Source of the DNA: Muricoccus pecuniae
Lineage (GTDB): Bacteria; Pseudomonadota; Alphaproteobacteria; Acetobacterales; Acetobacteraceae
Direction of reading: 5' to 3'
Assembly: GCF_014199205.1 (NCBI RefSeq)
Contig: NZ_JACIJD010000002.1
Location: 248,001-312,000, forward strand
DNA length: 64,000 bases
The notes beneath the pieces are model-generated. The model was not told the DNA's origin and made no database searches. It was given only the letters and a program-made list of their open reading frames with translations. Below, piece by piece: positions 166 through 28,727 of this stretch (position 1 is its first letter; each line of letters opens with the position of its first letter). Both the position numbers and the translations under genes were made by a program.

Positions 166-1044
166 TCACCCCACCGCCGCCGCCACCGCGCGCCCCACCG
201 AGGCCAGGGCGGCGTTCCGCGCCTCCAGCGGGGCCGCGCTCTCCGTGAGATAGGCCGCGACGAGGACCGGCGCGCGGCCGGGCGGCCAGAGCACGGCGAT
301 GTCGTTGTTCGTGCCGTGGCCGCCGCCTCCGGTCTTGTCTCCGCAGCGCCATCCCGCCGGCAGACCCGCTCGGATCTTCGCGTCCCCGGTGCGGCAGCCG
401 ACCAGCCAATCCGTCAGCCGGGCGCGGGAGGCCGGGGAGAGGGTATCCCCGAGTAGGAGGTGCCGCATGCTGCCCAGCATGGCCAGCGGGGTGGTGGTGT
501 CGCGGGGATCGCCCGGCCGCCCCTCGCCGAGCGCGGTTTCCCACCGGTCCAGCCGGAAAGCGGGGTCGCCCCAGCCCCGCACGATGCGCGTCAGCCCCTC
601 GGGGCCGCCGAGGGAGGGGAGGAGCAGGTTCGCGGCCGGATTGTCGCTCCAGACCATCGTCGCCTCGCAGAGTTCCGCGACGCTCAGCCCCTCCGGCCCG
701 ACATGCTTGCCCGTGACCGGCGCGTACTCGACGAGGTCGGAGGCGGCGATGGGCAGGCGGCGGTCGAGCCGCTCGCGCCCCGCATCCGCGGCCGCGAGGA
801 TGGCCGCGGCGAGGAGGAACTTGAAGGTACTGGCCGCGGGGAAGCGCTCCTCCCCGCGCCGGGCGAAGCGCGCGCCCGTGGCGGTGTCGAGCACGGCCAC
901 GCCGAGGCGCCCGCCGCCCTCCCTCTCCGCTCGCTGCAGGGCGCGGGAGAGGGCCTCCCCGTCGAGGGCGGCCTCGGCGCGCGGGAGGGCGGGAAGGAGC
1001 GGCGCGAGCGCGGCCCCGAGAAGAATGCTGCGTCTCCAGGCCAT
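166..1044 (-). CDS. bla: Class A beta-lactamase
   Basis: A 292-residue serine beta-lactamase that hydrolyses beta-lactam rings in the periplasm. It has an N-terminal signal peptide (roughly residues 1-25, ending PRAEA). All class A motifs are in order: STFK at 72-75 (acylating Ser72), SDN at 133-135, the omega-loop Glu169 in RWETALG, and KTG at 237-239. The residue four after the general base, normally Asn170 in Ambler numbering, is Gly173 here; known GES-type enzymes also carry Gly there. There are Cys at 126, 217 and 234, but none directly before the active Ser, so the Cys69-Cys238 bridge of KPC/SME enzymes is not expected. It lies 67 bases downstream of the ROK-like gene on the same strand. 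No ampR-like regulator is adjacent. Family assignment is firm; the substrate spectrum is unknown. Confidence 0.92.
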   Translation of the reverse strand: MAWRRSILLGAALAPLLPALPRAEAALDGEALSRALQRAEREGGGRLGVAVLDTATGARFARRGEERFPAASTFKFLLAAAILAAADAGRERLDRRLPIAASDLVEYAPVTGKHVGPEGLSVAELCEATMVWSDNPAANLLLPSLGGPEGLTRIVRGWGDPAFRLDRWETALGEGRPGDPRDTTTPLAMLGSMRHLLLGDTLSPASRARLTDWLVGCRTGDAKIRAGLPAGWRCGDKTGGGGHGTNNDIAVLWPPGRAPVLVAAYLTESAAPLEARNAALASVGRAVAAAVG

Positions 1045-1111: not shown

Positions 1112-2167
1112 TCAGTCCGGGTGCCGGTTGGTGAAGCGCGCGTTGCCCAGCCCCGTGCCGATGGTGAGCACGCCCCAGCGCTCCACGTCCCGCATGTTGT
1201 GGATCTCGCTCAGCCCCTGCAGCACGGCGTCGTTGTGCATCACCACCACCGGCGGATGGCCGGCGATCTCCGGCATTGCACGGGCGACGGCGCTGGGAAG
1301 GTGAAAGTCCGGGTCCTCCCAGTTGCCCGGCAGGTTCTGTCCGCCGCGGTCGATGGAGCCGTCCGGCTCGATGATGCCGGGGCAGCCGATTCCGATGAAG
1401 GGCGCGAGCGCCCGCCGCTTCGATTCCGCCAGGGACGCCATGCCGCGCAGCATGGTGGCGATGCGCTCCACCGCCGCCTCGCGGCTCGGCTTCTCGTCCC
1501 GGTGCCGCCAGATCTCCAGCCCGACGACGCGGGCCGCGGCGAGGTCCGGGGCCTTCTTCAGGTTCAGGTCCACCAGCCCCGCGCGGATGTTGGTGCCGCC
1601 GATATCCACGGCGAGCAGGCTGTCATGCCCGGCGAAAATCCAGCTCGGCGCGAGATGGGCGGCGCCGATCAGCGCGGCCTCGTCCGGCTCGTGGGTGATG
1701 GGGACCAGCTCCACCCCCTGCCCATCGGCCTTCAGCAGCAGGGAGGCGCGGCCGATGGCGAGCTTGCCCACCCGGCTGCCGCTCATCCCGCCGCCGACGG
1801 CGATGCGCTGCGTGTCCTTCCACCCCTTCAGCCGGAGGAAGCGGCGGGTGACGCCGGCCAGCTCCTGCGCGAATTCCTCGATCACGCCGTGGACGAGGGC
1901 CGCGGCCTCCGGGCGCTCGTCGTGGAGCAGCTTCTCCAGGCGGCGGTTCGACACCTCGATGTCATCGCCCAGCGGGTCCTCGTCGCCGAGCTTGCGGAGC
2001 CGGTCCCGCCACTCCTCCAGGATCGCGCGGAAGGCCCGCTTGCTCGCGCGGTCGCCGATGAAGCCCTCCTTGTCCCGCAGCTCGGCATTGTAGGCATCGA
2101 GCACGACATGGGTGAGCTCGGAGGCGCCGTGTCCGGCAACGGTCAGCGCGCTGGCCTGGTCGGGCAT
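1112..2167 (-). CDS. ROK/glucokinase-like protein with circularly permuted domain order
   Basis: A 351-residue actin-fold sugar-kinase-like protein. The usual ROK N-terminal motifs sit in the second half: phosphate-1 DIGGTN at 188-193, GIGCPG near 259-264, the catalytic-type Asp313 in HNDAVLQGLSE, and phosphate-2 GTGLGN at 337-342, after which the protein stops within ten residues. The segment normally C-terminal in ROK proteins (adenosine motif GGGMSG at 125-130, then EAALIGAAHL) lies in the first half. The ROK zinc motif (CxCGxxGCxE) is absent. ATP-dependent hexose phosphorylation is inferred from the motifs; the substrate is unknown. The start is ATG 2167, with AGGAG about 14 bases upstream. 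It follows the acyl-CoA synthetase by 58 bases on the same strand. A conventional glk lies at 27795. Confidence 0.75.
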   Translation of the reverse strand: MPDQASALTVAGHGASELTHVVLDAYNAELRDKEGFIGDRASKRAFRAILEEWRDRLRKLGDEDPLGDDIEVSNRRLEKLLHDERPEAAALVHGVIEEFAQELAGVTRRFLRLKGWKDTQRIAVGGGMSGSRVGKLAIGRASLLLKADGQGVELVPITHEPDEAALIGAAHLAPSWIFAGHDSLLAVDIGGTNIRAGLVDLNLKKAPDLAAARVVGLEIWRHRDEKPSREAAVERIATMLRGMASLAESKRRALAPFIGIGCPGIIEPDGSIDRGGQNLPGNWEDPDFHLPSAVARAMPEIAGHPPVVVMHNDAVLQGLSEIHNMRDVERWGVLTIGTGLGNARFTNRHPD

Positions 2168-26835: not shown

Positions 26836-27798
26836 ATGCCCGCCGTGATCACGACGCTCACCCTCAACCCCACCATCGACCTGGCCAGCGAGGCCGAGGC
26901 CGTCCGCCCCATCCACAAGGTCCGCACCTCCAACGAGCGCCAGGACCCCGGGGGCGGCGGGGTGAACGTCTCGCGCGTGGTGCGGGAGCTGGGCGGGGAG
27001 ACGCGGGCGGTGATCCTCGCCGGCGGGGTGACCGGCCATTTCCTTGACGAGCTGCTGGACGAGGCCGGAGTGCCCCGCCGCACGGTCCCCATCGCGGGCC
27101 GAACGCGGATCAGCCAGACCGTGCTCGACCGCGGCAGCGGCCAGGAATACCGCTTCGTGCCCGAGGGGCCGGCGGTGACGGAGGCCGAATGGGGCGCGGC
27201 CCTCTCGGCGGTCGCGGAGGCCGAGCCGGGATGGCTCGTCGCCAGCGGCAGCCTGCCCAACGGCGTGCCGGAGGACTTCTACGCCCGCGCCATCGAGGCC
27301 GCCCGGGCGCGCGGCCTGCCCTTCGTGCTCGACACCTCCGGCCCCGCGCTGCGCGCCGCCGTGGAGCGGGGCGGGATCGAGCTGATCAAGCCGAGCCAGG
27401 GCGAGTTCGAGACGCTGGCGGGCGGCCCGCTGGCCGAGCCCGGCGCGCTGGAGCGGGAGGCCGTCGCGCTCGCGCGGTCCGGCCGCGTCCGGCTCGTGGC
27501 CGTCACCCTTGGGCGGGACGGCGCCCTGCTGGCGAGTGCCGAGCGCAGCCTGCGCCTGCCCGCGCTGGACGTGCCCGTGCGCGGCGCCGTGGGGGCGGGC
27601 GACAGCTTCCTGGCGGCCATGACCCTTGCCCTGGTCCGGGGGAGCCCGCCGGAGGACGCCTTCGCCTGGGGCGTGGCCGCCGGGGCCGCCGCCGTCTCCA
27701 GCCCCGGCACCGCCCATCCCCGGCGTGCCGATGTCGTCGCGCTTCGGGACCGCATCCGCGAGGTTCCCGCCGCGCCGGCCGTGCGGGAGAGGGCATGA
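26836..27798 (+). CDS. pfkB: PfkB-family hexose kinase (6-phosphofructokinase II / 1-phosphofructokinase type)
   Basis: A 320-residue ribokinase-fold kinase. It has TLTLNPTIDLASEA at the N-terminus (the conserved NPxxD), GGGGVNVSRVVRELGG near 38-53, LVASGSLPNGVPEDFY, and the C-terminal anion-hole motif GAVGAGDSFLAAM with catalytic Asp. This fits the group phosphorylating fructose-6-phosphate or fructose-1-phosphate; the absence of a PTS fruA gene nearby favours PfkB. It overlaps glk by four bases (ATGA, 27795-27798), so both are cotranslated and likely channel glucose into glycolysis. Confidence 0.88.
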   Translation: MPAVITTLTLNPTIDLASEAEAVRPIHKVRTSNERQDPGGGGVNVSRVVRELGGETRAVILAGGVTGHFLDELLDEAGVPRRTVPIAGRTRISQTVLDRGSGQEYRFVPEGPAVTEAEWGAALSAVAEAEPGWLVASGSLPNGVPEDFYARAIEAARARGLPFVLDTSGPALRAAVERGGIELIKPSQGEFETLAGGPLAEPGALEREAVALARSGRVRLVAVTLGRDGALLASAERSLRLPALDVPVRGAVGAGDSFLAAMTLALVRGSPPEDAFAWGVAAGAAAVSSPGTAHPRRADVVALRDRIREVPAAPAVRERA

Positions 27799-28727
27799 CC
27801 ATGCGCCTCGTCGGCGATATCGGCGGCACCAACGCCCGCTTCGCCCTCTGCGAGCCGGGCTGCGCGCCGCGGGAGGAGCGCAAGCTCTCGGTGGCGGAGC
27901 ATCCCGGGCTGATCGAGGCGGCGGGGGCCTACCTGGCCGGGCGCGCGGTGGAGGAGGCGGTCTTCGCCGTGGCCACCCCCGTGCTCGGGGACGAGGTGGC
28001 CTTCACCAACAGCCCCTGGCGCTTCACCATCCCCGAGGCGCGGGAGAGGCTCGGCCTGCGGCGCCTGGTGATCATCAACGACTTCGTCGCCCAGGCCTCG
28101 GCTATCCGGGGCCTCGGCACGGCGGACCTGCGGGAGCTGAAGCCGGGCGAGGCCGATCCGGCCGCCCCCCGCGTGGTGATCGGCCCCGGCACCGGCCTCG
28201 GCGTCGCCTTCCTGCTCGGCGGCGGGGGCGCCGCCCGGGTGCTGGCGAGCGAGGCCGGGCACAGCTCCTTCTCCCCCCAGGACGAGACGGAGGAGCGCAT
28301 CCTGCACGGGCTGCGCCGTGAGTTCGGCCATGTCTCGGTGGAGCGCCTTCTCTCTGGCCCTGGCCTGCTGCGGATCGCGAACGGGCTCGCGGAGATCCGG
28401 GGCGAGGGGCTGCGCTTCGCCTCGCCCAAGGAGGTGACAGAGGCGGCCGGGGCGGGCGACCACCTCTGCCTGGAGGCAACCCGCATCTTCTCCGCCATCC
28501 TCGGCGCCGCGGCGGGGGACATGGCGTTGACGGTGCTGGCCGAGGGCGGCGTCTACGTCACGGGCGGGCTCTGCCGGAATCTCGGCCCGCTGCTGGACCG
28601 GGAGGCGCTGGTGCGCGGCTTCACCGGCAAGGGGCGCTTCGCCGGCTATCTCGGGGGCATTCCCATCACCCAGGTGATGCGGCCGCATACCGGGCTGCTT
28701 GGCGCCGCGATCTACGAGGAGCACTGA
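27795..28727 (+). CDS. glk: Glucokinase (GlkA type)
   Basis: A 310-residue ATP-dependent glucokinase of the non-ROK bacterial family. Motifs are LVGDIGGTNARFAL at the N-terminus, the sugar-contact FTNSPWRF, INDFVAQASAI with the catalytic Asp, GPGTGLGVAFLLG, SEAGHSSFSPQ (hexose-binding E/H), and GGVYVTGGLCRNL near the C-terminus. It makes glucose-6-phosphate in the cytosol. The start ATG 27795 overlaps the pfkB stop; GGGAGAGGG is the ribosome site. It is the second gene of the pair. Confidence 0.93.
   Translation: MTMRLVGDIGGTNARFALCEPGCAPREERKLSVAEHPGLIEAAGAYLAGRAVEEAVFAVATPVLGDEVAFTNSPWRFTIPEARERLGLRRLVIINDFVAQASAIRGLGTADLRELKPGEADPAAPRVVIGPGTGLGVAFLLGGGGAARVLASEAGHSSFSPQDETEERILHGLRREFGHVSVERLLSGPGLLRIANGLAEIRGEGLRFASPKEVTEAAGAGDHLCLEATRIFSAILGAAAGDMALTVLAEGGVYVTGGLCRNLGPLLDREALVRGFTGKGRFAGYLGGIPITQVMRPHTGLLGAAIYEEH

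Follow-up and report, generated by a model that had tools for sequence, protein, structure and literature searches.

The window (the whole stretch of Muricoccus pecuniae DNA analysed, 64,000 nt) carries near its start an open reading frame that is predicted to encode a ROK-type sugar kinase with its two halves in swapped order. The features of this gene, in window coordinates, are as follows.

1112-2167, minus strand: open reading frame of the predicted permuted ROK-type kinase, with an ATG start and 351 amino acids plus stop (ORF list, homologues, models)
1631-2167, minus strand: residues 1-179, counterpart of the C-terminal half in ordinary ROKs (hhalign, model, Pfam)
2030-2131, minus strand: residues 13-46, segment in the place of ExGH and the CxCGxxGCxE zinc motif (conservation in 62 homologues)
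1778-1795, minus strand: residues 125-130, adenosine loop GGGMSG (GGG invariant in 62/62)
1619-1645, minus strand: residues 175-183, short linker (sequence, model, best cut at residue 180)
1124-1618, minus strand: residues 184-348, module corresponding to the N-terminal half of ordinary ROKs (Pfam, hhalign, 3vov match)
1589-1606, minus strand: residues 188-193, phosphate-1 motif DIGGTN (D188, G190 and G191 invariant in 62/62)
1316-1339, minus strand: residues 277-284, substrate-side loop QNLPGNWE (sequence and conservation)
1226-1237, minus strand: residues 311-314, HNDA with the catalytic Asp313 (sequence and conservation)
1142-1159, minus strand: residues 337-342, phosphate-2 motif GTGLGN (GTG invariant in 62/62)

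The ORF translation agrees with the motifs and positions given in the earlier note (GGGMSG, DIGGTN, Asp313 and GTGLGN). In ordinary ROK kinases, the phosphate-1 motif, catalytic Asp, phosphate-2 motif and adenosine loop follow one another in this order; here, GGG at residue 125 precedes DIGG at 188, D313 and GTG at 337, and only nine residues separate GTGLGN from the stop. The linker joins what would be a former C terminus (LIGAAHLAP) to a former N terminus (LLAVDIGGTN).

An acyl-CoA synthetase gene lies 58 bases upstream of the kinase gene, and a class A beta-lactamase gene (PF13354; window 166-1044, minus strand) lies directly downstream. The beta-lactamase occupies the same place in two relatives (L010 and L026) and was not found in the loci of the others. 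An operon with the acyl-CoA synthetase was rejected because the two genes are 0.6-1.8 kb apart in relatives, and no conserved operon of the kinase with either gene was seen in the relatives' loci. The normal glucokinase mentioned in the earlier note is indeed present, as a group-A glucokinase (PF02685, 306 bits) at about 27807-28721 of the window, and the genome also encodes one ordinary ROK (241 bits). At window 26836-28727, the group-A glucokinase gene begins before a PfkB-like sugar kinase gene has ended, in an apparent sugar-phosphorylation operon.

We collected 62 distinct homologues, mostly from Alphaproteobacteria and 46-100% identical to the window protein. The order GGG, DIGG, catalytic Asp, GTG, with the halves swapped relative to the ordinary arrangement, was kept in all 62, with the C-terminal end 12-45 residues past the start of GTG; conservation of the swapped order had been named earlier as a check on the permutation. 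Residues invariant in the 62 were D188, G190, G191, R195, W220, H222, R229, QNLPG, W283, H311, N312 and D313, as well as Q317, S320, GTG, GGG, W116, F36, G38, D39 and F46. The residue after the catalytic Asp was Gly (HNDG) in 11 homologues, mostly from a Bradyrhizobium-like group (L088-L097).

The sugar-binding side of the protein is different. The Glu and His of ExGH in ROK kinases have roles in sugar and zinc binding. The likely equivalents of these two residues, at positions 17 and 20, were variable among the 62 homologues (R/E/Q and S/A/G/H, respectively), and a CxC-x(4,6)-C zinc pattern was found in none of them. In its place, residues 13-46 carry a conserved HGA..L.....YN.E.....GF.GD.......F. 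The window protein itself has ELTH at 17-20, which we considered as a remnant of the zinc site or of ExGH and rejected, as it is not conserved. The zinc motif is thus absent, as had been proposed; the PPGK-like ROKs, to which the catalytic half is most similar, also lack the motif, so its loss need not stem from the rearrangement.

The identity of the two halves was assessed by profile comparison. Residues 185-348 aligned to positions 2-142 of the Pfam ROK profile (PF00480; E 4.8e-9), and the protein scored 36.6 bits in its native order, above the family cut-off of 22.9 bits. With the halves exchanged, a single stretch covering profile positions 2-292 of 294 was obtained at 38.4 bits. The N-terminal half alone matched positions 178-292 weakly and below the cut-off (E 0.06 (0.061)). 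Among 23 homologues, the best match of this half to ROK had an E value of 1.1e-3; it matched ROK in nine and FGGY_C in seven of the 23. For comparison with profiles of ordinary ROKs, we relied on hhalign in local mode. In native order, residues 74-175 aligned to ROK 204-298 (score 46.5) and residues 185-343 to ROK 6-139 (score 39.2). In rejoined order, one block, 5-346, aligned to ROK 6-298 with a score of 66.8, as compared with 46.5 for the best native block. Residue 180 was the top-scoring cut among those tried, and the scores of an apparently global-mode run peaked at the same cut. The likeness of the N-terminal half to ROK is not due to chance, as its score of 46.5 lies far above those of 60 column shuffles (14.3 ± 2.1, maximum 20.6). 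A single-sequence HMM search with a narrow, insensitive NagK-like model gave best domains of 2.6-7.6 bits and did not distinguish between cuts, and a PDB search with the profile of the N-terminal half yielded nothing credible.

Predicted structures pointed in the same direction. The AlphaFold2 model of the whole chain, built with 23 homologues in the alignment, had a pLDDT of 82.5 and a pTM of 0.82. With sequential aligners, one half only was matched in ROK structures: its residues 182-347 matched residues 1-143 of the Thermus ROK hexokinase 3vov (Z 9.5, rmsd 2.7, 133 aligned), residues 183-348 matched residues 3-142 of Streptomyces GlkA 3vgk (Z 8.8), and residues 180-345 matched human MNK. 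Residues 1-182 modelled alone (pLDDT 70) best matched the C-terminal half of ROK kinases, the outcome that the earlier note had set as a check: residues 141-313 of 3vgk (Z 9.1, rmsd 3.8, 145 aligned), followed by 3r8e 144-300 (Z 9.0) and 3vov 143-295 (Z 7.3). The top six structural matches of this half were all sugar kinases, with pantothenate kinases next at Z 7.4 and below, and Foldseek also ranked ROK first (best E 2.9e-3). The two half models therefore fit 3vgk 3-142 and 141-313, each superposed separately, and both would probably fit one ROK structure at once. Residues of about 20-36 and 160-182 were modelled with low confidence in the isolated half, but within the whole chain most of them reached about 80-90 pLDDT, a pattern that would follow if each half completes the other. 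In a sequential search with the whole chain, ROK matches spanned the catalytic half only, as expected for a permutant, and the whole-chain matches, to CoaX, Hsp70 and actin at Z 8-9, agree with the actin fold being internally duplicated.

The permuted kinase can be set beside several known systems. With the NagK/glucokinase-type ROKs (PF00480; 3vgk, 3vov), it shares both lobes, the phosphate-1, catalytic Asp, phosphate-2 and adenosine motifs and an NLPGxW-type substrate loop, and differs in its swapped halves, the missing zinc motif, the non-conserved ExGH and the different conserved segment at the zinc-site position. By sequence, the catalytic half is most closely related to polyphosphate/ATP glucomannokinase and PPGK-like ROKs (1woq, NF045942; L150-L153), which share NDA.xQGL and GTGLGxAxF with it and of which the alphaproteobacterial ones lack the zinc motif. 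They differ in their ordinary order, their length (about 220-267 aa) and a shorter second half unlike the N-terminal half of the permuted kinase. The polyphosphate glucokinase model NF045942 gave 22.3 bits over its N-terminal part only, below the curated cut-off of 250 bits. ROK repressors (Mlc, NagC, Lmo0178) have the same fold and suggest a possible sensor role; they have an N-terminal DNA-binding domain that the permuted kinase, with its invariant motifs, lacks. No Pfam match to an N-terminal helix-turn-helix was found, the N terminus being the module of the ROK C-lobe. FGGY kinases, CoaX and Hsp70 likewise consist of two RNase-H-like halves, the second lobe holding a Gly-rich adenosine loop, but in ordinary order, and their matches were weaker or less specific than those to ROK. 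We also noted short PPGK-like ROKs (about 219-262 aa) in Alphaproteobacteria and relatives (L150-L153, L184-L193) that have no zinc motif and a reduced second half and whose scores do not come near the NCBIfam cut-off for polyphosphate glucokinase.

The distribution of the family is patchy. Among 398 genomes sampled across the phylum, 24 clear full-length matches were found, the other, weak hits being to the DIGG-GTG region in ordinary ROKs, and the permuted kinase was present in 16 of 385 genomes of a class sample. Rhizobial plasmids often carry it (206 records), under the annotation 'ROK family protein'. On a tree of the catalytic lobe, the sampled permuted kinases formed one clade (support 100/99) on a long branch; because of long branches, the tree did not settle whether PPGK is their sister group. 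Some Bradyrhizobium-like genomes hold two copies (G336, G320; L121, L122, L123).

The gene neighbourhood in other lineages suggests a link with osmotic or general stress. The kinase gene is divergent from otsB in Rhizobium and Shinella; in two Phreatobacter genomes and a Rhizobiales MAG, otsB, a GH15 trehalase-like gene and otsA all diverge from it. An OpuAC betaine transporter gene is divergent from it in Variovorax (L046) and one more genome (L128), as is a gene for a peptidase of the NAGGN system in Sinorhizobium, and in one further genome the kinase gene lies beside DUF892. We searched up to 250 bases upstream of 54 non-Roseomonas homologues for an EcfG-type promoter (GGAAC-N(15-17)-nGTT). 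Such a site was found in 18 of the 54, as compared with 0.29 expected from shuffles and five on the reverse strand. Of these 18 sites, 17 were located 95-137 bases before the His13 codon and one was located 67 bases before it. The EcfG1 consensus of Rhizobium etli is GGAAC-N16-CGTT (PMC3892343), and otsB of this species is induced by (p)ppGpp (PMC3188799). In rhizobia and their relatives, the permuted kinase may thus belong to stress gene sets around trehalose or other compatible solutes. These links were not seen for the Methylobacterium, Roseomonas and most Bradyrhizobium-like homologues, and the window's own Roseomonas-type lineage had neither an EcfG site nor osmolyte neighbours.

We consider it probable that the protein is a ROK-type (actin-fold) kinase with a natural circular permutation, most likely active and, in other lineages, tied to osmotic stress. 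The permuted architecture proposed in the earlier note is supported by the profiles, the predicted models and the motif order of the 62 homologues, evidence on which a strict permutation and a fusion of two genes look the same. The chain would start just past the position of the GTGxG strand of ordinary ROKs, run through the adenosine-binding lobe and a short linker into the phosphate-binding and catalytic lobe, and end after GTGLGN. As the cut would fall at the boundary of the two RNase-H-like halves that make up the actin fold, a complete two-lobed kinase could still form. Every residue for phosphotransfer is invariant, which makes an active kinase with the usual ROK mechanism most likely: Asp313 would activate a sugar-like hydroxyl, which would attack the terminal phosphate of ATP or polyphosphate. 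The replacement of the sugar-clamping Glu and His and of the zinc site makes a plain hexose bound through ExGH an improbable substrate. The weak single-sequence match of the N-terminal half to ROK, its almost equally frequent Pfam matches to FGGY_C, the non-conserved ExGH pair and the missing EcfG site and osmolyte neighbours in the window's own lineage speak against this explanation.

Alternatives differ from this explanation in the origin of the halves or in the function. The C-terminal lobe of one ROK could have been fused ahead of the N-terminal lobe of another, PPGK-like ROK, which we regard as possible, if clearly less probable. By hhalign, the catalytic half scored 102.6 against the PPGK-like ROK profile and 39.0 against the NagK-like one, the N-terminal half scored 18.7 and 46.5, respectively, and no close ordinary-order relative of the latter was found in 318 genomes. 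The short second halves of PPGK-like ROKs may, however, have been reduced after the split, and the rejoined profile aligns, weakly, with 1woq across the junction to its residue 182. A convergent assembly of an independent actin-fold kinase with swapped lobes, not derived from ROK, is very unlikely: the native-order whole-chain matches to CoaX, Hsp70 and actin, in keeping with an internally duplicated fold, and the FGGY_C matches of the N-terminal half in some members would suit it, but the PPGK-like score of the catalytic half clearly marks it as a ROK, and ROKs were the top structural matches of both halves. Hardly any weight falls on an artefact, either a misassembly or an unrelated N-terminal domain ahead of a truncated ROK. 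The sub-threshold single-sequence Pfam evidence for the N-terminal half would allow the latter, against which the model of this half matches ROK first. Misassembly is refuted by the conservation of the same order across independent genomes from many genera, with identities of 46-86% and no internal stops in the best matches.

A sensor role was suggested earlier beside that of a kinase with another substrate. A non-catalytic sensor of sugars or nucleotides, resembling a ROK repressor that has lost its DNA-binding domain, we judge doubtful. The missing zinc site, the non-conserved ExGH, the stress-linked gene context and the presence of a normal Glk and another ROK in the genome are compatible with sensing, which is possible but not favoured given that the catalytic Asp, the phosphate loops and the adenosine loop are invariant in all 62 homologues; moreover, Pfam gave no match to an output domain, DNA-binding or other. 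Returning to the permuted, active kinase, we regard as still more speculative, and improbable as it stands, its extension to a new kinase family that arose by permutation or reversed fusion of ROK halves and, in a rebuilt substrate site, phosphorylates a compatible solute such as trehalose or a related stress metabolite under the alphaproteobacterial general stress response.

The open-access papers searched contained no description of a natural circular permutant among ROK kinases. A widespread family in which the permuted order is fixed and the phosphotransfer residues are kept would be a direct test of how well actin-fold kinases tolerate chain ends between the lobes, and a kinase hidden under the label 'ROK family protein' may carry a metabolic step of the osmotic stress response in rhizobia and their relatives. 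In three of the relatives' loci (L030, L031, L047), OtsA (GT20) has an N-terminal extension of about 270 residues with a hydrophobic stretch at its start, and the extended otsA adjoins the GH15 trehalase-like gene and otsB.
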